A DNA stretch of 35,459 nucleotides from a virus: IMG/VR virus record IMGVR_UViG_3300037119_002493, positions 1 through 35,459 of that record. One strand, given 5' to 3'. Positions 3,153-35,459 of the stretch are shown one piece after another. A program made the translations under genes and the position numbers. Position 1 is the first letter of the stretch. The number at the start of each line of letters is the position of its first letter. The notes under the pieces are model-generated. The model worked only from the letters and a program-made list of their open reading frames with translations, did not search any database and was not told the origin of the DNA.

Positions 3153-4166
3153 ATGCCTACACTGTGGACCGATGTAATCGACCCCGCCACCCTTTCCGGG
3201 TACATGCGGGAATCACTCGCTGCTTACGAAGCTCGTCAGGGCTCGCTTGAGCAGTTCCTCAACAACGAGAACGTCCCGGACATTTCCGTGTCCTTCGACG
3301 TTGGCGCCTTCGGCCTTACCCAGACTGCTCGGTTCCGTGCGTTCGACGCCGAGCCCGAGTACGGTAAGGAAGAAGCCGGTAAGCGGGTCATGATCGAACT
3401 CCCGGCCATCGGCCAGAAGATCGCCATCTCCGAGTACCGCGCTCTCCGTCAGCGCAACGCCTCCAACCAGGCAATGCTGGACTCCATCCTCAAGACCGCC
3501 GACCGCGTCGTTCGCGCCGTGGCCGACCGGATGGAACTCCTGCGTGGTGTGGTACTGGATACCGGTATCGCTACCGTCAACCAGTCCAACTTCCGTGTCG
3601 CCGACAACTTCGGTCGCCCGGCAGGCCACACCGTCACGGCTGCGGCTCTCTGGTCCATCGCGGCCACCGACCGCATCTCCGACCTGCTGGCTTGGCAGGA
3701 CACCTACCGTGCGACCAACTCGATCAACCCGGGTCGCATCCTCATGTCCTCGACTGTGTACGCACAGTTCCGTAAGGGCACGCAGTTCCAGAACACCGTC
3801 ACGGGCCGCCCGATGACGCAGTCCGAAATCCAGGCCATCATGGCCGATGAGGGCCTCGCCCCCATCCAGATCTTCGACCGCCGCGTCAACTTCGAAGGCA
3901 CGCTCACCCCGGTTGTCCCGGCGAACAAGGTCCTCCTGCTCCCGACTCCGGAGGAATCCGAAGCCCTGGGCAAGACCTACTGGGGCACCACGCTCACGGC
4001 GACCGACCTCGGTTGGGGCATCGCTGATGACGAGCAGGCAGGTATCGTCGCGGGCGTGTACCGCAACGAGCAGCCCCCGGTCATCGCGGAGGTCATCTCC
4101 GACGCAATCGGCATGCCCGTCCTGGGCAACGCGGCTCTGTCCTTCTCGGCACAGGTCCTCGCGTAA
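3153..4166 (+). CDS. Major capsid protein (lambda gpE-like, HK97 fold)
   Basis: A 337-residue protein following the decoration gene by 15 bases, with an AAGGGG ribosome site. The sequence resembles the lambda gpE-type capsid family: an N-terminal helical region with a short acidic arm, a central segment with PAIGQKIAISEYRALRQRN, a long helix (residues about 105-130) and a C-terminal beta-rich P-domain with IADDEQAGIVAGVYRNEQPP. It would form the icosahedral shell. Its codons are strongly biased to C-ending forms, more so than flanking minor genes, consistent with very high expression. A terminator immediately downstream separates it from the neck genes. Confidence 0.88.
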   Translation: MPTLWTDVIDPATLSGYMRESLAAYEARQGSLEQFLNNENVPDISVSFDVGAFGLTQTARFRAFDAEPEYGKEEAGKRVMIELPAIGQKIAISEYRALRQRNASNQAMLDSILKTADRVVRAVADRMELLRGVVLDTGIATVNQSNFRVADNFGRPAGHTVTAAALWSIAATDRISDLLAWQDTYRATNSINPGRILMSSTVYAQFRKGTQFQNTVTGRPMTQSEIQAIMADEGLAPIQIFDRRVNFEGTLTPVVPANKVLLLPTPEESEALGKTYWGTTLTATDLGWGIADDEQAGIVAGVYRNEQPPVIAEVISDAIGMPVLGNAALSFSAQVLA

Positions 4167-4177
4167 CTCAACCAGCT

Positions 4178-4211
4178 GTGTGGGGTCCTCTTCGGGGGGC
4201 CCCACACTTTT
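4178..4211 (+). terminator. Intrinsic terminator after major capsid gene
   Basis: Arms 4178-4190 and 4195-4207 form a 13-bp stem with one G-U pair, capped by a TTCG tetraloop closed by C-G, and followed by TTTT (4208-4211). The T-run is short, so partial readthrough to the neck genes is likely. This would step expression down after the capsid gene. Confidence 0.8.
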
Positions 4212-4226
4212 GAGAAAGGTACTACC

Positions 4227-4631
4227 ATGGGAAAGAAGTTCAATGCTCATGTCGCGGTTCACAAAGACCCTGCTGAGACTGTTTGGTTCGCGCCGGGTGA
4301 CGACGTTCCTGAGTGGGCTCTGGATCTTGTTGGCGATCACGTTATCGGGGATGCTGAGGAAGCTGAAGACGTTCGCCTCACCGACCCGGAAAACGAGGAA
4401 GATGACGACGAGACCAAGTGGTCGACCGTCAACACACTTCCTCCGGCAGCCGAGACCACACCAGACGTGGACGAGGATTCCGACGAGGACCTCGGATACG
4501 AAGACCTCTCGAAGGACGATCTGAAGTCGCTGCTCGAACAGCGCGACCTGCCGGTCTCCGGCAACAAGGCTGAGCTCATCGCCCGTCTCGAAGAGGACGA
4601 CGCAGCCGACGAAGACGACGACACCGAGTAG
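4227..4631 (+). CDS. Acidic protein with SAP/HeH-type motif
   Basis: A 134-residue, very acidic protein. Residues 1-50 form a small predicted beta-rich domain, 50-92 is an Asp/Glu-rich linker, and 93-123 (LSKDDLKSLLEQRDLPVSG followed by a KAELIARLEE helix) matches the SAP/HeH-LEM helix-extended-loop-helix motif, which often binds nucleic acid. The tail is again Asp/Glu-rich. Such proteins commonly occur between the capsid and adaptor genes of actinophages but their role is not established. It may act at the DNA-filled neck or as a minor head component. It starts after an AAAGG site just beyond the terminator. Confidence 0.65.
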   Translation: MGKKFNAHVAVHKDPAETVWFAPGDDVPEWALDLVGDHVIGDAEEAEDVRLTDPENEEDDDETKWSTVNTLPPAAETTPDVDEDSDEDLGYEDLSKDDLKSLLEQRDLPVSGNKAELIARLEEDDAADEDDDTE

Positions 4632-4639
4632 GAGTCACC

Positions 4640-5056
4640 ATGGCCAACGTCCTCGGTTATGTTTCGACTGACCTGGAAACTCCGTATGAGGGTGAGTTGG
4701 ACCTGGAAAATCTTGACGAGTGGTACCAGGACAAAATCGACGAGGCAGTCCGACTGCTTCTTCGGAAGGCTCCCACCATCGTCTCGCGCATGGCTGCTTA
4801 CGACGCCGAAACTGGGGTGGGTCTTGACCCGGCCTTTGTGAAGGACAAAGTCATCGGCGCTGTGTTGCGCGTACTGCGTGACCCCGAAGGAATGCAATCA
4901 GAAACAGAAGGCAACTACTCCTACAAGCGTAACCCAGTTGTAGCGTCAGGCAACATCTGGTACACGAAGGACGAACTTGCTGACCTGGGCATCCTCGCCA
5001 CAGCGACCGTCAGGCCGCGAACGGTGTTTGCCTCGAATCGGTATGGTTGGCCGTGA
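4640..5056 (+). CDS. Head-to-tail adaptor
   Basis: A 138-residue protein in the neck cluster. The helical N-terminal half with an acidic start and WYQDKIDEAVRLLLRKAP, the middle KVIGAVLRVLRDPEG, and the short beta segment before the C-terminus match the Gp15/Gp19-like adaptor proteins that bind under the portal ring. It starts with an ATG nine bases after the preceding stop, with TAGGAG as ribosome site. Its stop codon overlaps the likely start of the next gene (GTGA). Confidence 0.75.
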   Translation: MANVLGYVSTDLETPYEGELDLENLDEWYQDKIDEAVRLLLRKAPTIVSRMAAYDAETGVGLDPAFVKDKVIGAVLRVLRDPEGMQSETEGNYSYKRNPVVASGNIWYTKDELADLGILATATVRPRTVFASNRYGWP

Positions 5057-5409
5057 GCGCCCTCACCTCCGGCCCAGATACCGTGACTTGCATCCCACGG
5101 GTTATCATTGGTCAAGACCGAACAGGAAGCAACAAGCTGGGCCCCGGGACACCTGTCACCTATCGTGGTGTTAGCGTGCAACCCGCGGGCCTGGCTGCTT
5201 TCGGTTCTGCTGAAGACCCCGGCTACATCAACGCTGACTACGTTGTCCTCAAGGCTGACAAACCCGCATGGGTAGGCGGCCCTCACTCCACGGTCATGTG
5301 GAACGGGGATGAATACGACCAGGTTGGTGTGGTCAAACGGTTTGGCCGTGGTCGACGCACCAAGCACGAAGAAATCAAGCTCAAGGCACGAGGGACGGCG
5401 GTGAAGTAA
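5053..5409 (+). CDS. Head-to-tail stopper
   Basis: A 118-residue protein, chosen to start at GTG 5053 because this gives a GTGA overlap with the adaptor stop, a junction type used elsewhere in the window (25778, 31261). A TTG at 5047 is the alternative and adds two residues. Neither start has a clear Shine-Dalgarno site, so translational coupling is likely. The product is a small beta-rich protein with a basic C-terminus, fitting the stopper that closes the neck channel after packaging. Assignment is mainly by gene order. Confidence 0.65.
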   Translation: MSALTSGPDTVTCIPRVIIGQDRTGSNKLGPGTPVTYRGVSVQPAGLAAFGSAEDPGYINADYVVLKADKPAWVGGPHSTVMWNGDEYDQVGVVKRFGRGRRTKHEEIKLKARGTAVK

Positions 5410-5756
5410 TGGCTGAGGTATTTGGTTGGGTTCCCAACGGTGTCGCTCGCATGGCGGGCAATTCCGAAGAGATGGACACAGTCGCCATGCAGCTCATGTT
5501 CATCGTCAAGCGTCGTGCCCGGGCTCACCAGCTTACGGGTGACTACATCGGCAAGCTGTCGCTCAAGAACGTTCCCGGCAAGAAGGGCGTTCGAGACCGC
5601 ATGGTCTTTGCAGGCGACAAGGCTGCTTACTCCATCGAGTGGGGTCACTTCTCCCCACGCAAGGGTGAACCTGGTGCAACCTGGGTTCCCGGCCAGCACA
5701 TCCTGGGTGGCGCTGTCGCCCAACTGCCTGGCCCCTGGGTCCGCGGGAAGTTCTGA
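5409..5756 (+). CDS. Neck / tail-connector protein (HK97 gp10-like position)
   Basis: A 115-residue basic protein whose ATG overlaps the previous TAA (TAATG) and whose stop overlaps the next ATG (TGATG). The central helix QLMFIVKRRARAHQ followed by a GDYIGKLSL strand and a VFAGDKAAYSIEWGHF segment is typical of small neck proteins between stopper and tail terminator in actinophages (DUF5403 or HK97 gp10 type). These help join head and tail. The exact family is uncertain. Confidence 0.6.
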   Translation: MAEVFGWVPNGVARMAGNSEEMDTVAMQLMFIVKRRARAHQLTGDYIGKLSLKNVPGKKGVRDRMVFAGDKAAYSIEWGHFSPRKGEPGATWVPGQHILGGAVAQLPGPWVRGKF

Positions 5757-21599: not shown

Positions 21600-23057
21600 A
21601 TGGCTTACGATTTCATCTGGCCCTGGCCGAAAGGCAAAGTGGCTAGTCAAGAGTTCGGTACATGGCCCGGGGGCGTAAACCCCGCAGGCGGGCACACTGG
21701 TATCGACGTACCACTGCCAGTTGGCACTCCCCTCCGCGCACCTGCTGATGGTGTGGTCGAGGCTGCTCGCTGGTTCTACACGACTGATGGTTCTGACAAC
21801 CCCTGGCTGCTGACTGCAGGCGGAGGCATCTGTCTCGTCATCAATCACGGCAAAGGTCTGCCGACCACGATCATGTGCCACCTCAACGAGACGAAGCTCA
21901 ACCCGGGCGACAAGGTCAAGAAAGGCCAAGTCGTTGCATGGTCGGGCAACACGGGCAAGTGGACCACTGGTCCGCACTGCCACTTCGAAGTGTTCCTCGA
22001 CAAGTACAACATCCGAAGCTCCACGTATGGACGCTCGAACCCCCGACTGGTATGCACCTTGTACTGGGAGGACGTTCTCGCCGTTCAGCCGCAGGGAGAT
22101 ATCAGCACTCCCATCATGGGCTTCCAGCGTGACAGCATTGTGGAAATCCGTCAGCGTTCAGCTCCGGATCACAACTCCACGCTGATCAAGTCCTGGGCTG
22201 CTGACACCCGGTTCGACTTCGGTGGGTTCACGACCAAGGGCACCGACCCGTACGGCGACGGCAACCGTCTCTGGTTCAAGGGTCGTTACTCTGACACCTG
22301 GTTCCACTCCTCGGGCTTCGGTGACAAGGGCACTCACGATCTGCAGAACTTCACGCCTGCCGATCCGACGCCTCCGCCCGTAGTTGTGACGCCACCCACA
22401 CCGACGGCTCCCAAGTACGAGTTCACGCAAGACATCTTCAAGGTTGGAGATATCAACGTCGAGAAGATCCCTGCACACTGGGACAACTACGGCGAGGAAT
22501 TTCCGACGAACCCCTCGGGTGTGGTGTGGCACTGGTGGAACAACATTCCGAACAGGCCGTCGATTGCTTCGGTGATCAACGAGTTCTGCAACGTGTCCAC
22601 CTCCAAGTCGCCGCACTTCATCGTGACGCATGATCGAGTCATCCAGTGCGTGTCGCTGAACGACCGGGCATTCCATGCGGGTCCTGCCGGCAATGACAAG
22701 GTGGGCGTAGAGGTTGATCCTCTGGCGAATGAAAAGAACGCTGATGGTTCCTACACCGAACTCGCTCTGAAGATTCAGGCGAACGTCCGTGCTCTCGCGG
22801 CTGAGCTGCGTGACTTCTACGGACGCAAGCTCAACGACCATCTGCACAAGGAATTCATGGCAACCGAATGCTCGGGGTTCGACCTGGCACGCTTCAAGGT
22901 TGCTGACATTGTGGTTGACGAACCCAAGGTTCCCGACCCTGTCGTTGTCCCGGTGACACCCCCGCCGCCAATCGTTGTTCCACTGCCTGATGAAGGCACT
23001 GTCTTGCGGAACTTCTTCGACTGGTTGATCAAGATGTTTCTGGAACGCACGAAGTAA
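21600..23057 (+). CDS. Endolysin: M23 endopeptidase plus N-acetylmuramoyl-L-alanine amidase
   Basis: A 485-residue protein with AGGAG ahead of the ATG. Residues about 15-165 are an M23 (LytM-type) peptidase with H32-x3-D36 and the HxH pair H126/H128, expected to cut peptide crosslinks. Residues about 175-245 resemble a small SH3-like wall-binding region. A Pro/Thr linker (about 257-275) leads to an amidase_2 domain (about 280-430) with predicted zinc ligands H311, H416 and C424. A second Pro/Val linker ends in an amphipathic helix FFDWLIKMFLERTK. There is no signal peptide, so release needs the downstream holin. Two catalytic domains attack two bond types in peptidoglycan. Confidence 0.9.
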   Translation: MAYDFIWPWPKGKVASQEFGTWPGGVNPAGGHTGIDVPLPVGTPLRAPADGVVEAARWFYTTDGSDNPWLLTAGGGICLVINHGKGLPTTIMCHLNETKLNPGDKVKKGQVVAWSGNTGKWTTGPHCHFEVFLDKYNIRSSTYGRSNPRLVCTLYWEDVLAVQPQGDISTPIMGFQRDSIVEIRQRSAPDHNSTLIKSWAADTRFDFGGFTTKGTDPYGDGNRLWFKGRYSDTWFHSSGFGDKGTHDLQNFTPADPTPPPVVVTPPTPTAPKYEFTQDIFKVGDINVEKIPAHWDNYGEEFPTNPSGVVWHWWNNIPNRPSIASVINEFCNVSTSKSPHFIVTHDRVIQCVSLNDRAFHAGPAGNDKVGVEVDPLANEKNADGSYTELALKIQANVRALAAELRDFYGRKLNDHLHKEFMATECSGFDLARFKVADIVVDEPKVPDPVVVPVTPPPPIVVPLPDEGTVLRNFFDWLIKMFLERTK

Positions 23058-28735: not shown

Positions 28736-28956
28736 TGCCACCAAGCGGAGCATTCGTCCTGGGTATCATTGCCATCCTGCTCGCGTTCATCATCTTGCTT
28801 GTTGTCGGCACCATGCCCCAGAACAAGGCACGCGAGACGGTAGAGGAAACACATCTGCTCCGGGACGGCAGGACTGTTACCTGCCTCGTCATCCCGAGCG
28901 AGAAGGATTACTCAATCAGCTGTGACTGGATGACTGCATCGGTGCTGGTCAAATGA
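28735..28956 (+). CDS. Small membrane-anchored protein
   Basis: A 73-residue protein. ATG 28735 is preferred because it overlaps the upstream stop (TGATG) and opens directly on a membrane helix (about residues 6-25). An upstream frame extension would place His/Asp-rich sequence ahead. The rest is a small beta-rich domain with LRDGRTVTCLVIPSEKDYSISCDW, a pair of Cys that could be linked, as in proteins with an exported domain. It is coupled to the kinase gene by ATGA. Confidence 0.6.
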   Translation: MPPSGAFVLGIIAILLAFIILLVVGTMPQNKARETVEETHLLRDGRTVTCLVIPSEKDYSISCDWMTASVLVK

Positions 28957-29519
28957 TCATTCTCGAAGGCCCTGATGGTGGGGGCAAGACCACACTGTTG
29001 AATCACCTGACCCGAGCGACGGGCTTGCCGGCACACGAGAGGGCATCGCATTCCACCAAGGGGCCACGAACTGACCTGTATGAGTGGACAACCAACGACA
29101 TGCTTTCCTGGCACACTCAGCCACTCGCAATCTACGACCGTCACCCGTTGACCTCGGAGCATATCTACGGCCCGACTGTGCGCGGTGACGTGCGTCCCGG
29201 GTTCGAGATGAGCAACCGTGAACTGGCCTACATGCGCCGTCATCTTCGTCGGAATGCGTTGGTAATCATTTGTTTACCCCCACTCAACACGGTGCGCGAC
29301 AACGTGGCTGGGGAGATTGGTCAGATGGATGGGGTCCTGGAAAACATCGACCACATTTACGAGTGCTACCGGATGATGCTTCACATCTGGCCGCTAGACT
29401 CACACATTGCAAGGTACAATTACCTTGACGGCGAGCACGGACCCGACGGATACGCTGGTGTTCTTGCCGCTGCCTTACATCACAAGTACAGCTGGAGAGG
29501 CTCAGAATATGTCCACTGA
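28953..29519 (+). CDS. Deoxynucleoside/thymidylate kinase-like P-loop protein
   Basis: A 188-residue kinase with a P-loop GPDGGGKTT (residues 6-14), the DRH motif of thymidylate kinase-like enzymes (62-64, in IYDRHPLTSEHIYGP), and a later RR-containing lid-like region (MRRHLRRNALVIICLPP). It would phosphorylate deoxynucleoside monophosphates, possibly including a modified one given its neighbours. It is coupled to the gene before by ATGA and overlaps the dUTPase start by 11 bases. Confidence 0.72.
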   Translation: MIILEGPDGGGKTTLLNHLTRATGLPAHERASHSTKGPRTDLYEWTTNDMLSWHTQPLAIYDRHPLTSEHIYGPTVRGDVRPGFEMSNRELAYMRRHLRRNALVIICLPPLNTVRDNVAGEIGQMDGVLENIDHIYECYRMMLHIWPLDSHIARYNYLDGEHGPDGYAGVLAAALHHKYSWRGSEYVH

Positions 29520-30048
29520 TGGATTGAACATGAACAGGCCGAATGAGGGGTTGTACTTCGAAGAAGCGAAGCCCCCGAAGCCCGACCGCCTGGCGATCAT
29601 GCTGAACATGCAGCGCGAGTTGCAGGAGCGGTCATTCAAGACTGACTTCGAAACCATGAAGCAGGAACACCGGCTGCAGTTCATCAAGGACATGAGCATG
29701 GCGCTCAGTGCCGAACTGCAGGAGGCGCTCGACGAAACAGGCTGGAAACCCTGGGCCACGTCGAACCACATCAACACGGCTGCATTCAAGGGGGAGCTGG
29801 TCGACGCCTGGCACTTCTTTATGAACCTCATGCTGGTCGTGGACATGGACGCAGAGGAACTGTTCGAGCGATACATGCGCAAGCACCAGGTGAACGCCGA
29901 CCGTCAGGCTGCTGGGTACGACGGGGTGTCCACCAAGTGCAACGGCTGTAAGCGCGCACTCGACGACGAAGCGGTGCTGTGCCACGCCTCAGAGGTACAG
30001 GATGGCAAGCACTGCTGCCACTACAACACACCCGGGACGCTGTTCTAG
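29509..30048 (+). CDS. Dimeric dUTPase/MazG-like NTP pyrophosphohydrolase with zinc ribbon
   Basis: A 179-residue protein starting at ATG 29509, eight bases after GGAGAGG (29494-29500). The helical domain holds E69-x2-E72, K80-x-W82 and E96-x2-D99 followed by WHFF, the pattern of dimeric (all-alpha) dUTPases. These hydrolyse dUTP or related dNTPs to the monophosphate. Residues 144-170 (C144-x2-C147, C158, C169, C170, H171) look like an added zinc ribbon that may bind DNA or a partner. Frame extensions upstream cross the kinase gene. The next gene starts at the base after the stop. Confidence 0.75.
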   Translation: MSTDGLNMNRPNEGLYFEEAKPPKPDRLAIMLNMQRELQERSFKTDFETMKQEHRLQFIKDMSMALSAELQEALDETGWKPWATSNHINTAAFKGELVDAWHFFMNLMLVVDMDAEELFERYMRKHQVNADRQAAGYDGVSTKCNGCKRALDDEAVLCHASEVQDGKHCCHYNTPGTLF

Positions 30049-31005
30049 ATGTTCGCGAAAAAGTATAAGGACATTACCGAGCTGTCCTATGAGCTCACGA
30101 AACGATTGGTGTACGCGAAGCCCGAGGATATCGACCTGGCGAACAGCATGGACTTCCAGCTGCACAACGTTGTGGTCGAGGCTGAATCCTGCGATTACGA
30201 TTTTGACCTCAAGGATGTCTGGGTCACACACAGTCGATGGACCACACTGGTACGCCAGTACATCGACCCTGAAGCGCTCGAGGTTTGGCTCGATGTAATC
30301 GAGAAGAAACTGAAAGGCAAGAAGCGTGGATTATCTTTCATGCGGACTAACCAAGTGGCCAAACGAACCACGGCTAGTAACAATAAGGAATGGCGAGTAT
30401 GGGGCTCTTGCATGTTGGGCTTCGGATACCGGGCACTGCCACGCCCGCAGATCACACTCCATTCCCGGACCACTTACCTTGGTTATGTCGGACAGCTTGA
30501 TCTCGCTCTGGTTCACGTCCTTGCTCGTGAAATTGGAAAACGGGTGGGGCTCGAACCCAAAGACATCTCGTTTGTGTGGCATCTCGAAGCTGCACAGTTC
30601 CATAGCTTCAAATCGCTTGCCTGGTTTTACCAGCATGACCGTGACCGTAGATTTCTCGAGGAAAAGCCTCACACTGAAGAGCTCAAACTTAGAGCTCCTG
30701 TCCTATGGCGGTCGCAGATGCGGTACCAGGAATTTCTCGATCTGGATGAACGCGGTGTCCTCTACTGTGATATGTCGTTCTCCCAGCAGCTCCGTATACG
30801 ACGGAGGTATCACACTGAGGTACATGGCCCCACCTTTGGTAAGCCCTGGGAGGGTGGTACCCGACTCAAATCCGCAGGAATGGCGAAAGTTGCCCCGATC
30901 CTTCCCTCGATCCCAGCGACGAAACTGACCTTTGATTGTCTCAAGAAAACAGAAGGGGTCGGTTCCGACCTCTCCGGCTATATGGAGGATGATGACGATG
31001 CCTAA
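30049..31005 (+). CDS. Thymidylate synthase-fold protein 1 (atypical; possible dCMP-modifying enzyme)
   Basis: A 318-residue protein. By-eye alignment to E. coli thymidylate synthase matches C121 with nucleophile C146, R140 with phosphate-binding R166 (19 versus 20 residues apart), then YLGYVGQLDLAL with D151 at the place of N177 (11 residues after the Arg in both), and ISFVW near the FVW of TS. H207 and Y209 of TS correspond to Q183 and H185. Asp at the N177 position is what dCMP hydroxymethylases use to recognise cytosine. The N-terminal 100 residues and the C-terminus after 195 differ from TS. Activity is uncertain. It directly follows the dUTPase with no gap. Confidence 0.6.
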   Translation: MFAKKYKDITELSYELTKRLVYAKPEDIDLANSMDFQLHNVVVEAESCDYDFDLKDVWVTHSRWTTLVRQYIDPEALEVWLDVIEKKLKGKKRGLSFMRTNQVAKRTTASNNKEWRVWGSCMLGFGYRALPRPQITLHSRTTYLGYVGQLDLALVHVLAREIGKRVGLEPKDISFVWHLEAAQFHSFKSLAWFYQHDRDRRFLEEKPHTEELKLRAPVLWRSQMRYQEFLDLDERGVLYCDMSFSQQLRIRRRYHTEVHGPTFGKPWEGGTRLKSAGMAKVAPILPSIPATKLTFDCLKKTEGVGSDLSGYMEDDDDA

Positions 31006-31264
31006 GCATGAGACTGCCTTGACGATGGTTGATGACCAGATCGAGCGGGAAACAAAGTCGCGGAGCGAGGTTGAGGCCGAGATGCTCCGGGCGAAGGCCG
31101 AGTACGAACGCAAGGAACGCGAGCTCGCTCTCGTCGACTGGTCGCTCGGCGAACTGCACAAGAGCCGCAACGCCCTGCTTGTCGACCGCTCGAATCCCGA
31201 GGGTGAGCCGGCCGCACCCAAGCCCGGTCGGGGCAACAAGCCTGCACCCAGCGAGGTGCTGTGA
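30998..31264 (+). CDS. Coiled-coil protein between the two TS-fold genes
   Basis: An 88-residue protein starting at ATG 30998 behind GGAGGA (30984-30989). Residues 10-60 form a strong predicted coiled coil, nearly all Glu, Lys, Arg, Ala and Leu, followed by a Pro/Gly/Lys-rich tail. It overlaps the preceding TS-fold gene by eight bases and the next by GTGA. It could hold the two TS-fold enzymes together or act as a scaffold. No catalytic motif and no recognised family. Confidence 0.6.
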   Translation: MPKHETALTMVDDQIERETKSRSEVEAEMLRAKAEYERKERELALVDWSLGELHKSRNALLVDRSNPEGEPAAPKPGRGNKPAPSEVL

Positions 31265-32094
31265 CGATTCTTGGCTGGTCGGACGCGGGCGAGAATGGAC
31301 ACCTTGTCGTATCAGGTAAGGAAGACTTCCTGGAGGCACGTTCGTATCTCGCCCGCCGTCTGTTGAACACAACGCCAGCCAATCACGGAAAGTGGCAGAA
31401 GCTTGATATTTCAAAATCAAGCGCTCACGCCACATACGAACTTCTGAACACCACGTTCTGGTATGAGATGCCTAAATCCGAGGAAGCGGCTCAGGTGTTG
31501 ATCGAGCCAGACCTGCCCTGGGCTGAGGCGCATTTCCAGGAACGCATCGGGGGCCGACCCATCAACCCTGGTGTGGAACACACGAACTGGCCGTACCATG
31601 CGGGACAGGTTGAACTGCACCAGCACGGAGGCAAGTACGACCACAACTACATGGAACGTATGTGGCCGACCGACCTGAAACTTGAGACGGACCTCGAGTA
31701 CCAGGTAACCAATGGCAACCGATTCACTGGGTACCGTTTTCCTGTAGGAGATTTAGATGACGTTATTGCCCTACTCGAGTCCGACCCTGGAACTCGTCAG
31801 GCTTATCTACCGATATGGTTCCCCGAAGACACGGGCTCGACTGCTGGACAGCGAGTCCCTTGCTCGCTTGGGTATCACTTTATCCTCCGAGATGGGGTAC
31901 TACACTGCCAGTACAACCTGCGGTCTTGTGAAATCTACCGTCACTTTACGAATGACATCTACATGGCGACGCGCCTGGCCCAGCATGTAGCTGAGTCTCT
32001 GTCGTTTGATGTATCGTTGGGTCAGTTGACGACACACATAGTTTCACTCCACGGGTTCGTGGGGGACACCGCACACATCGAAGGGATGGTCTAA
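31261..32094 (+). CDS. Thymidylate synthase-fold protein 2 (possible dCMP hydroxymethylase)
   Basis: A 277-residue protein starting at GTG 31261 (GTGA overlap). It is the closer of the pair to thymidylate synthase: RVPC201 matches APC146 of E. coli, LHCQYNLR221SC matches LSCQLYQR166SC at the same 20-residue spacing, D232 replaces N177 at the same 11-residue spacing, and H259 matches H207. A TRQAYLPIW segment (178-186) corresponds to SRRIIVSAW. With Cys, Arg and His kept, chemistry on a pyrimidine nucleotide is plausible, and D232 predicts dCMP rather than dUMP. Y209 of TS is V261 here. Confidence 0.75.
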   Translation: MTILGWSDAGENGHLVVSGKEDFLEARSYLARRLLNTTPANHGKWQKLDISKSSAHATYELLNTTFWYEMPKSEEAAQVLIEPDLPWAEAHFQERIGGRPINPGVEHTNWPYHAGQVELHQHGGKYDHNYMERMWPTDLKLETDLEYQVTNGNRFTGYRFPVGDLDDVIALLESDPGTRQAYLPIWFPEDTGSTAGQRVPCSLGYHFILRDGVLHCQYNLRSCEIYRHFTNDIYMATRLAQHVAESLSFDVSLGQLTTHIVSLHGFVGDTAHIEGMV

Positions 32095-32250: not shown

Positions 32251-32558
32251 CACCCGACCACTACATCGAGAAGGCCAAGCACGCGATGCTGACCGGGCAG
32301 CCGAACCTTGCCATGCTCTACATGAAGCGGGGCATGGTGATCCTCGACCAACGTCGTCGGGCACACCTGATGAAGACTTGGGATGGCCAGCTCATTCTGT
32401 TCGGTGAAGCGATGAACGAGCTGGGTCGAGTCTTTGTCGAATCATTCACACCCGCCGTCAGGGCTGCCAACGTGGCGGTCGAGTCCTTCCATCGCCAGTT
32501 GCTCGAGGCCTTCGATCAGGAGTTGACGCAGATGGAATTTGCGCTGGTGTCAGAATGA
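32247..32558 (+). CDS. Small helical hypothetical protein
   Basis: A 103-residue all-helical protein coupled at both ends by ATGA. The first 30 residues (DHYIEKAKHAMLTGQPNLAMLYMKRG) have the look of a short helix-turn-helix repeat such as a TPR. The rest is two long amphipathic helices. No family is recognised. It lies between the TS-fold genes and the dCMP deaminase gene and may be an accessory to that pathway. Confidence 0.62.
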   Translation: MTPDHYIEKAKHAMLTGQPNLAMLYMKRGMVILDQRRRAHLMKTWDGQLILFGEAMNELGRVFVESFTPAVRAANVAVESFHRQLLEAFDQELTQMEFALVSE

Positions 32559-33001
32559 TCCGCCCTGACCGCGCCGAGATGATGATGGGCATTGCCCGTG
32601 CTGTGTCGCTGAGGGGAACGTGCGACCGGCTCTGGGTTGGTGCAGCAATCGCCCGCGACTCACGGGTCATCTCGACAGGCTACAACGGCAACGTCTCGGG
32701 TCAGCCGCATTGCCGGCACAAGGAATTGCCCGACAACACCCAGTGTGATTCAGCCGTCCATGCTGAAGCCAACGCCATCGTGTTCGCCGCTCGTCATGGT
32801 GTGGCCGTCGAAGGGGCTGAGCTCTGGTCCACACATCAGCCCTGCCTGTCATGCGCCAAACTGATCATCAACGCGGGTATCGTGAAGGTTTTCTACGAGA
32901 AGCCGTACCGCCTGCGCGAGGGGCTCGAGATGCTGATCCGTTCAAATGTCGAGGTGTTCCGTATCCAGGAAGACTATTCTGCATTTCAAGTGACACGATA
33001 G
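32555..33001 (+). CDS. dCMP deaminase (deoxycytidylate deaminase-like)
   Basis: A 148-residue protein with the full deaminase signature: H69-A-E71 and PCLSC (C97, C100) coordinating zinc and catalysis. A further Cys/His set (C23, H52, C53, C64) resembles the second zinc site of phage dCMP deaminases such as that of T4. It converts dCMP to dUMP, supplying dTMP synthesis. In a phage making modified cytosine it would also keep normal dCMP low. Its ATG overlaps the previous stop, and the polymerase gene follows after four bases. Confidence 0.88.
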   Translation: MIRPDRAEMMMGIARAVSLRGTCDRLWVGAAIARDSRVISTGYNGNVSGQPHCRHKELPDNTQCDSAVHAEANAIVFAARHGVAVEGAELWSTHQPCLSCAKLIINAGIVKVFYEKPYRLREGLEMLIRSNVEVFRIQEDYSAFQVTR

Positions 33002-33005
33002 TCAT

Positions 33006-35459
33006 ATGAAAGTTTCGTTGATGAATCCCGTGGTGCGGGATAAGGTACGTGATCCTGAGGGCTGCGTTGATTGCGCACTCTCGGCACAGGGTACCGACAA
33101 CTGCATCACGGCTGAAGGAAACGAGAAGGCAGACCTGCTCGTGCTCACACGACTGCCTCTGGGTCCACGTAATCGGGCCGAGCTTCACGAGTACTTGCGG
33201 GGTGCGGGTATCGACCCTGCGGCTGTAGCGATTACGTCCGTCACCAAATGTTCGACCTGGGGTACCGAGGCAAGCAAGGCTGACATGAAAGCTTGCCGTC
33301 GTCACTTGCTCGCCGAGATTGACGTGATCAAACCCAAGTGGGTACTGGCCCTCGGTGGTGAAGCATTGTTCACTGCCGCGGGTCGGTCCGGCATTATGAA
33401 GTACCGCGGACAGGTGTTCGATTTCAAGGAACGCCCGGACGTGAAGGTCATCGCAACCATCTCGCCGTCCATGGTGTTCCGTAACCCTGGGCTACGTGGT
33501 GGCTTCATGGCAGACCTCGCGTACATCAACAGGATGTCAAAGGGCGAAAAATCGTCTGACGCACTCGTGCCGAAGCGTGTTCGCATGTTGATGACAAAGG
33601 TGGGTCTCCAGGCGCTTGCAGACGAACTGAAGACGTGTGAGGGCTATGCGTTCGACATTGAAACAACGTCGTTCGATGAATTCAAACCCGACTCTAAAAT
33701 CATCTCGCTGTCACTGTCGACCTGGCGAGAGGGTGACACTGGTCCACGCGAATGCTGGGTCGTCCCGCTGTATCATCCCGAGTCGCCATGGAGGACACGC
33801 TGGAAGGAAGTGCTGCGTGCACTGGGTAGATTCCTGCGAATGCCCAAGCGCCGTGTCGCGCACAACGGTAAGTTCGACCTGCGTTGGCTGAGGCACTTCG
33901 GTCGTAGGTTCTCGCTGACGTTCGACACCATGCTGGCTGCACACCTGCTCGACGAGAACCGGCCCAAAAGTTTGGAATCACTGTCACGCGAACTCCTTGG
34001 TGTGGAACCCTGGAAGATCGACAACACCACGCTGATTGACCAGCCGCTGCGTAAGGTCGCACGCTACAACGGTATGGATACCTGGAACACGGCAGGCCTG
34101 TACTTCATTCTCCGCAAGCACCTCATGGAACAGCCCCGCCTTGCTGCACTGATGCAGCGAATGATGGTGCCGGCGTCCGAGGTGTTCACGGATATCGAAC
34201 GTCATGGTATCTTCGTAGACGTGCCGCTCATGGATGAACGCGCACACATCACCAAGTCCGAGCTGAAGGCGATCAACGACCAGCTGATGGAATGGGTGCC
34301 CGACAAGAGCGAGTGGCCACCGAACGTCAAGGAAGTCAACTTCAACGCGTCGAACTTCGCACGCTGGTGGATATTCGAATGGCTTGAACTGCCCGTGCTC
34401 GCACGTGGTAAGTCGGGTGACCCGTCGATGGCTGAAGGCCTTATGTCCAAGCTGCAGGCCGAGCATCCGCACAAGGTGATCGACCTCATGTTGGAACGAG
34501 TGAAGTGGAACAAGTATGACACATCTTTCTTTTCCGCGTATCAAGAACAGGTTGATGAGAACGACCGAATCCACACCACGTTCAAGCTCACGGGTACGGT
34601 CACTGGTCGACTGTCCTCGGGTAAAGGCGATCAGGATAAGGTTACCGGACGAGTACAAAATCGCGGTGTCAATCTTCAACAAGTCCCGAGAGACGCGTTT
34701 GTTCGCGGTATATTCGGCGCGGCGCCAGGCTGGGCGTTCATCGAATGTGATTACTCTCAAGTTGAACTTAGAGTTGCCGCCTTCTTAGCCAACGAAACAA
34801 CCATGAAGCACCTGTACAACACAGGCCAGGACATTCACATGACCATGGCTATGCGTATGACAGGTAAGCCCGAGCATCTCGTCACCAAGGACGAACGCAA
34901 GAAAGCTAAGGCCGTGAACTTTGGGTTCTTGTATGGCATGGGCTGGATGAAGTTCATCTCGACCGCTTGGGAAAACTACGGCGTCGTCGTGACGGAGGAA
35001 GAAGCGAAGGCGTTCCGTAAGGCATTCTTCGATGAATTCCCATTGCTGATGCGCTGGCACGCGAAGCAACGCATGATGGCGCACAAGTATGGACGTGTTG
35101 AATCACCCATTGGTCGCATCCGTCACCTCCCAGATATCAACAGCTCCGACTCTGGTGTGGTGAAGGAAGCCGAACGTCAGGCAATCAACTCGCCTGTGCA
35201 GTCGTTCGCATCAGACATGGCTGTCATGGCACTCGTACTGATCGACAAGGAACTGAAACGTCGCGGGCTGCGTGCTCGCTCGGTCGGTACCGTGCATGAC
35301 GCAATCAACTTCGAATGCCCTGAAGAGGAACTCGAGGAAGTAGTACCGCTGATCAAGCACTACATGGAAAACGTTCCTCTCGAGGAATGGTTCGGTGTAC
35401 ATCTTGATATTCCCATCATCGGTGACGTAAAGATTGGCCGTCGCTGGGGTGGCGCTGAT
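33006..35459 (+). CDS. Family A DNA polymerase with N-terminal UDG-like domain (3' truncated)
   Basis: A frame of 818 residues open to the window end. Residues 1-170 resemble family 4 uracil-DNA glycosylase: C20-x2-C23 and C82-x14-C97 fit its 4Fe-4S ligands, and IKPKWVLALGGEAL matches its fold. The catalytic HPS motif reads SPS (153-155). Residues about 205-370 are the 3'-5' exonuclease: D217-x-E219, N287-x3-D291 and Y354-x3-D358. The polymerase domain has motif A D582YSQVELR, motif B R631-x3-K635 with NFGFLYG (F639), and motif C VHD765A. The Glu usually after that Asp is Ala766. ATG 33006 has only a weak ribosome site but matches the domain start. Only a few C-terminal residues seem missing. 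Confidence 0.92.
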   Translation, partial: MKVSLMNPVVRDKVRDPEGCVDCALSAQGTDNCITAEGNEKADLLVLTRLPLGPRNRAELHEYLRGAGIDPAAVAITSVTKCSTWGTEASKADMKACRRHLLAEIDVIKPKWVLALGGEALFTAAGRSGIMKYRGQVFDFKERPDVKVIATISPSMVFRNPGLRGGFMADLAYINRMSKGEKSSDALVPKRVRMLMTKVGLQALADELKTCEGYAFDIETTSFDEFKPDSKIISLSLSTWREGDTGPRECWVVPLYHPESPWRTRWKEVLRALGRFLRMPKRRVAHNGKFDLRWLRHFGRRFSLTFDTMLAAHLLDENRPKSLESLSRELLGVEPWKIDNTTLIDQPLRKVARYNGMDTWNTAGLYFILRKHLMEQPRLAALMQRMMVPASEVFTDIERHGIFVDVPLMDERAHITKSELKAINDQLMEWVPDKSEWPPNVKEVNFNASNFARWWIFEWLELPVLARGKSGDPSMAEGLMSKLQAEHPHKVIDLMLERVKWNKYDTSFFSAYQEQVDENDRIHTTFKLTGTVTGRLSSGKGDQDKVTGRVQNRGVNLQQVPRDAFVRGIFGAAPGWAFIECDYSQVELRVAAFLANETTMKHLYNTGQDIHMTMAMRMTGKPEHLVTKDERKKAKAVNFGFLYGMGWMKFISTAWENYGVVVTEEEAKAFRKAFFDEFPLLMRWHAKQRMMAHKYGRVESPIGRIRHLPDINSSDSGVVKEAERQAINSPVQSFASDMAVMALVLIDKELKRRGLRARSVGTVHDAINFECPEEELEEVVPLIKHYMENVPLEEWFGVHLDIPIIGDVKIGRRWGGAD

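Follow-up and report, generated by a model that had tools for sequence, protein, structure and literature searches.

Two neighbouring genes of a siphophage-like virus, here called P1 and P2, encode a pair of thymidylate synthase (TS)-like proteins whose probable role is to supply phage DNA with a modified cytosine nucleotide. P2 is related to TS and carries Asp at the position that sets pyrimidine specificity, and P1, judged from its predicted structure, is a TS-superfamily member as well. On balance we favour, with some confidence, the view that the locus is a phage pathway making a C5-modified deoxycytidine nucleotide before replication, in which P2 would modify dCMP and P1 would act alongside it; we propose substrate, product, cofactor and partnership from the fold, the conserved residues, the obligate linkage and the operon content of the pair. 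A modified cytosine nucleotide had already been named as a possible product in a sequence-only reading of this DNA, and an Asp-type pair set in a nucleotide-metabolism operon agrees with it; from that reading we retain the fold, the Asp and the probable cytosine modification, and drop a coiled-coil partner.

The locus and its genes

The DNA analysed (the window) corresponds to one IMG/VR virus record, IMGVR_UViG_3300037119_002493, of 35,459 bases. It encodes a tape measure, a capsid and an endolysin (21600-23057), the last with its M23-like metallopeptidase part N-terminal and its amidase part C-terminal. On the plus strand, a P-loop nucleotide (dNMP) kinase (28953..29519; phrog_761, E 2e-14) is followed by a MazG-like all-alpha NTP pyrophosphatase of the dUTPase/dCTPase type (29509..30048, with a chosen start codon in a frame open from 29407; PF08761, E 1.8e-15; phrog_18650, E 1e-40), by P1 (30049..31005), by P2 (31261..32094; phrog_160), by a dCMP deaminase (32555..33001; phrog_174, E 1e-53; PF00383) and by a DNA polymerase I that runs off the end of the record (33006..35459; phrog_17, E 1e-163). 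Both TS-like reading frames thus lie where the sequence-only reading had placed them, and the family matches verify the nucleotide-metabolism neighbours that it had listed (kinase, dUTPase-type enzyme, dCMP deaminase and polymerase). The 88-residue coiled-coil gene that it had proposed as a partner of the pair is found at this position in no locus other than the window and L001, the nearest relative of the window (L009 being the same contig), and we therefore put this gene outside the P1-P2 system.

P2 carries a cytosine-type active site

P2 passes the Pfam Thymidylat_synt model (PF00303) with 26.7 bits against a cut-off of 24.3. The nucleophile C201 (codon 31861..31863), R221, D232 (codon 31954..31956, at the TS N177 position) and H264 are kept in every scorable sequence (C201 and H264 in 156/156), and position 232 is Asp in all 155 scorable relatives, Asn being found only in an extra canonical TS of Microbacterium phage Triscuit. 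C201, R221 and D232 were read correctly from the sequence alone, as were C121, R140 and D151 of P1; the conserved His of P2 is H264 rather than the H259 then named. Glu60, Tyr130 and Arg133 are kept in nearly all relatives, Ser or Thr follows the Cys, and the H147 position is Thr or Ser, as in T4 gp42, AfhB and MilA.

Asp at position 177 is a mark of cytosine-using enzymes (PMC5175136, PMC6400193): the corresponding Asp179 of the T4 enzyme protonates cytosine N3 (PMC6400193), and Asp at this position is associated with modified-cytosine contigs, the other residue that varies with modification being H147 (PMC8670742). The Asn177 of canonical ThyA is replaced in both proteins, by Asp in 155/155 P2 and 114/114 P1 sequences, eleven residues after the Arg in P2 and in every P1, so that the Asp that had been assigned to this position in both proteins is confirmed, and D232 and D151 are of the dCMP/CMP hydroxymethylase type. 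In PDB profile searches, the AfhB dCMP hydroxylase (9iqu/9iqc; E 2e-8) and MilA are the best matches to P2, and T4 gp42 is weaker (E 3e-4). The P2 domain, taken from the fused model described below, likewise superposes best on AfhB (9iqc; VIA Z 19.1, rmsd 3.1, 219 aligned), with MilA (18.5) and TS (17.8) in a near tie. P2 therefore combines a TS fold with a cytosine-type active site, as a dCMP 5-hydroxylase does, and has AfhB as its best profile and fold match.

P1 is predicted to share the TS fold

P1 lies below the reach of family profiles: its sequence matches neither PF00303 nor any other Pfam family, no NCBIfam family and no PDB profile, and finds only phrog_13667, a family of unknown function (E 1e-81). 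Its AlphaFold model (55 alignment rows; pLDDT 89.1, pTM 0.88) nonetheless folds like TS, and its Cys, Arg and Asp fall in register. The best PDB match is again AfhB (9iqu; Foldseek E 1e-6, VIA Z 14.2, rmsd 4.0, 188 aligned), the VIA Z being 13.2 for MilA and ~10 for L. casei TS, and all listed top structural matches belong to the TS superfamily. An unrelated fold, which the sequence-only reading had left to structure prediction, is ruled out by this model and by its Foldseek and VIA matches.

The conservation of P1 points the same way. Across 114 distinct proteins of the P1 superfamily, Y71, C121 (the presumed nucleophile; codon 30409..30411), R140 and D151 (codon 30499..30501) are the sole invariant positions, and the spacing of 11 residues from Arg to Asp, found in 114/114, is the same as in P2, T4 gp42, AfhB and one canonical TS. 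Because three of just four invariant positions make up the TS motif, its register is more than chance (p ~1.4e-4 for C, R and D falling at such spacings by random placement). Overall identity between P1 branches is 15-30%, and yet the catalytic residues do not vary. A profile of P1 alone does not match the P2 profile, whereas the wider P1-superfamily profile does so weakly (E 0.009), with C, R and D in register. P1 proteins share no conserved counterpart of the Glu that activates folate, nor one of the His/Tyr that binds the ribose.

Distribution and linkage of the pair

By tblastn, P1 occurs in 85 phage records (Gordonia, Mycobacterium, Streptomyces, Microbacterium and Curtobacterium) and P2 in 106 at 1e-10, with equal P1/P2 counts by host genus: 68/68 in Gordonia, 9/9 in Mycobacterium, 4/4 in Streptomyces and 2/2 in Microbacterium. 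The annotated regions, that of phage Muddy included, have one gene order in common: a kinase, a dUTPase/MazG, P1 ("hypothetical protein"), P2 ("thymidylate synthase"), a dCMP deaminase and DNA polymerase I, with small genes or a lysin B gene inserted in some operons; in two Gordonia phages (L005:10019-10858 and L006:10795-11598) the lysin B gene sits between P2 and the dCMP deaminase. In phages of Serratia, Pseudomonas, Brevundimonas, Yersinia and Desulfofustis, the gene for a P2-like TS is preceded by one for a protein of ~270 residues; this upstream family is phrog_34294, aligns with P1 and is called "pyrimidine hmase synthase" in one deposited record. The IMG/VR loci number 56 for the first (P1) group and 51 for this second one, and the two groups are one superfamily. 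An iterated profile of the phrog_34294 group recovers every first-group member at the same reading frames, and the third-best viral structural match of the P1 model is the PMBT14 member of the phrog_34294-type group (Foldseek E 3e-8).

The 114 distinct P1 relatives come from actinobacterial and proteobacterial phages. A search of bacterial genomes, made with the P2 profile, found P2 at 8 loci in bacterial or archaeal MAG contigs, and P1 is present at 7 of them. Two P1-P2 pairs (L206, with a weak P1 match of E 7e-6, and L211) are on contigs binned as Pacearchaeota and Aenigmatarchaeota that are probably viral. Some operons hold three TS-fold genes: phage Triscuit has P1, P2 and, directly after P2, a separate canonical Asn-type TS (L004:11257-12054), so that the pair is dispensable for dTMP there. 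A further locus, L088, carries tandem P1-type genes (3866-4714 and 4711-5472) and then one P2 (5482-6318), that is, three TS-superfamily genes running.

P2 lies close by in 112 of 114 scored P1 loci, and the two exceptions are contig ends. Among the best 80 P2 loci, 70 have P1 within 4 kb, 4 are cut by contig ends and 1 has its P1 elsewhere in the record; P1 went undetected at the other 5, all on fragmentary contigs. P1 was not seen without P2 on long contigs and P2 was sometimes seen without P1, and P1 is therefore the more dependent of the two. In 34 pairs the genes overlap by 4 bp, as is typical of translational coupling; starts were set at the first possible codon, and overlaps larger than 4 bp are perhaps artefacts. 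The order is reversed, with P2 before P1, in two pairs (L074:792-2194 and L107:2538-4678), both with a P2 of a more diverged group. One P1 relative (L203:1489-2217, in the record of L159) lies several kb from P2, and its matched stretch contains one in-frame stop. At two loci where P2 has no detectable P1 (L171:4744-5880 and L194:2881-4002), adjoining genes resemble, by eye, DNA C5-cytosine methyltransferases.

The module around the pair is nearly constant: among 61 long paired loci, polymerase I and dCMP deaminase are each present in 61, the phrog_761 kinase in 60 and the pyrophosphatase in 52. Tree congruence was discarded as evidence of partnership: in the mirror-tree comparison, P1 correlates with P2 (0.64) no better than with polymerase I (0.69), and no special co-evolution of P1 and P2 is seen.

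A putative pathway to a modified cytosine nucleotide

In the pathway that we propose, the MazG-type pyrophosphatase would convert dCTP (and dUTP) to the monophosphate. With cytosine favoured by the Asp at the N177 site, Cys201 of P2 would attack C6 of dCMP and allow a group to be attached at C5; P1 would act with P2, via a mixed oligomer or a second step. The phrog_761 kinase would phosphorylate the modified monophosphate upward and the linked polymerase I would incorporate the modified nucleotide, while the dCMP deaminase would divert unmodified dCMP to dUMP. Hydroxymethyl and hydroxy are about equally likely as the group added, and others (e.g., 5-methyl-dCMP) are also candidate products.

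The helper enzymes of the module are similar to those found in phages with modified cytosine, and AXL3 and Mosigvirus offer parallels. Phage AXL3 has an Asp-type TS, a phrog_761 kinase, an NTP-pyrophosphatase and a dCMP deaminase, and its DNA withstood the 35 enzymes tested whose sites contain G/C and was cut by just the 2 with A/T-only sites (PMC7504290); no recognisable P1 was found in AXL3, and its gp29, considered as a candidate, is a kinase. Mosigvirus DNA contains arabinosylated 5-hydroxycytosine, and these phages make 5-hydroxy-dCMP with a TS-superfamily enzyme (PMC13390438); in these genomes an Asp-type TS relative adjoins a phrog_761 kinase.

One residue that bears on the chemistry of P2 is the Glu that activates methylene-tetrahydrofolate (THF) in the folate enzymes, E58 in E. 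coli TS, E60 in T4 and E68 in MilA (PMC5175136, PMC6400193). Two alignments, at ~20% identity, place this column at position 84 of P2, which is Asn, Asp, Arg or His, or at position 91, which is His. Because neither candidate column holds a Glu, as in AfhB, P2 appears from these alignments, weak as they are in this region, to lean away from the classical folate route.

One tentative reading makes P2, together with P1, a dCMP 5-hydroxylase of the AfhB or 5-hodCMP synthase kind, with flavin and O2 taking the place of folate and 5-hydroxycytosine as the product. AfhB tops the P2 profile search and both fold searches, shares a [WY]AED..VSG stretch with P2 and, like P2, has a phrog_761 kinase nearby; the margins are small, however, with the Z of MilA within 1, and the R+3 residue (TS D169) is Asp or Glu in P2 but Asn in AfhB. 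Equally tentative is the reading that P2 is a folate-dependent dCMP hydroxymethylase of the T4 type and P1 its heteromeric or regulatory subunit, which was the view of the sequence-only reading. P2 keeps the Asp179 equivalent, the Cys-Thr/Ser of C148-T149, and the Arg, Ser, Asp (R+3) and His of T4 gp42, in an operon whose content resembles the hmdCTP pathway. Against this, besides the missing Glu, Gln takes the place of the second phosphate Arg (R127 position) and gp42 is among the weaker profile matches.

The role of P1

P1 and P2 are in the same frame, and the window could be read through, with stops as Gly, to give a P1-linker-P2 chain for modelling. Both domains of the fused AlphaFold model are well folded, but its pTM of 0.53 (14 paired rows only, with many unpaired) supports no P1-P2 interface. 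Since P1 retains the catalytic Cys together with the Arg and Asp that bind substrate, it is predicted that a cytosine nucleotide is probably still bound by P1, perhaps covalently. A purely regulatory or inactive P1 would be less likely on the same grounds, the Cys nucleophile being invariant and the Arg and Asp present in every member. P1 could quite possibly be the other subunit of a mixed oligomer with P2, and may, with a little less confidence on our part, be a second enzyme acting on the product of P2.

A more specific and rather speculative form of the latter role has the P1 Cys re-adding to C6 of the P2 product for a further change at C5, giving a hypermodified nucleotide without a glycosyltransferase. 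It accords with the Cys, Arg, Asp and Tyr found in 114/114 P1 proteins, with P1 never standing without P2 on long contigs while a few loci have P2 with no detectable P1, with the two P1 genes and one P2 of L088, and with the early regions of the phage records that we examined, in which no glycosyltransferase is annotated. A subunit role accounts for the same linkage, however, and in P1 no co-substrate site was identified and the ribose-holding His/Tyr of TS is not conserved. An ordinary thymidylate pathway, with dTMP as the product of P2 and P1 as a degenerate duplicate, is improbable: records do call P2 a thymidylate synthase and the deaminase and dUTPase of the operon also supply dUMP, but Asn177 has become Asp in every P2 and His147 Ser or Thr, Triscuit keeps its separate canonical TS, and catalytic residues that are invariant at such low identity between branches argue against decay of P1.

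Implications

To our knowledge, TS and its relatives are single-gene homodimers, and a near-universal companion that has the nucleophile and the specificity residues and yet is unrecognisable by sequence is unexpected. Our best reading of the pair is a two-gene dCMP-modifying system that would feed modified dCTP into phage DNA. We put forward more hesitantly a fuller picture of a two-component system: P1 and P2 would form one mixed enzyme or carry out successive steps, their two Cys-Arg-Asp sites would cooperate to add a non-methyl group to C5 of dCMP without folate, and the modified base would occur in actinobacterial and proteobacterial phages and possibly in archaeal ones. A function is thereby proposed for phrog_13667 and phrog_34294, both phage families of unknown function by annotation, and modified cytosine is predicted in several well-studied phages: Gordonia phages Cozz, Emalyn and GTE2, Streptomyces phage KimJongPhill and the therapeutic Mycobacterium phage Muddy. 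The prediction has a bearing on the way these phages cope with host restriction. We know of no phage with the P1-P2 pair that has been analysed for modified bases.

Comparison with known systems

Among the closest known systems is AfhB (9iqu/9iqc/9ir2), which from its PDB titles we take to be the dCMP hydroxylase of phage HY126, a riboflavin-dependent monooxygenase with FAD. We infer that it is the Mosigvirus 5-hodCMP synthase because an identical sequence stretch is found in Mosigvirus genomes and because of these titles. AfhB and P2 have in common the TS fold, Cys-Thr and R-x10-D, a phrog_761 kinase neighbour and, as aligned here, the lack of a folate-activating Glu; unlike the pair, AfhB is a single TS-like gene with Asn at R+3, arabinose sugar-modifying genes nearby and no P1. 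Its 299-residue neighbour was considered as a P1 and rejected: it belongs to phrog_3891, and neither PHROGs nor a PDB sequence comparison linked it to TS.

T4 gp42 shares with P2 the Asp at the N177 position, Cys-Thr, Arg-Ser and the His, and serves pre-replicative nucleotide modification with similar helper enzymes, but it is a homodimer from one gene, with the folate-activating Glu60 and no P1. The CMP hydroxymethylase MilA (5jnh, 5b6d), second-best structural match to both P1 and P2, is likewise of the TS superfamily, with Asp186 and Cys-Thr, and resembles P1 in its helical C-terminal extension; it differs from the pair in belonging to antibiotic biosynthesis, preferring ribonucleotides, keeping Glu68 and being a single gene. 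Canonical ThyA has the fold, Cys and Arg of the pair and the His of P2, but carries Asn177 where the pair has Asp and His147 where P2 has Ser/Thr, and works without a P1 partner.
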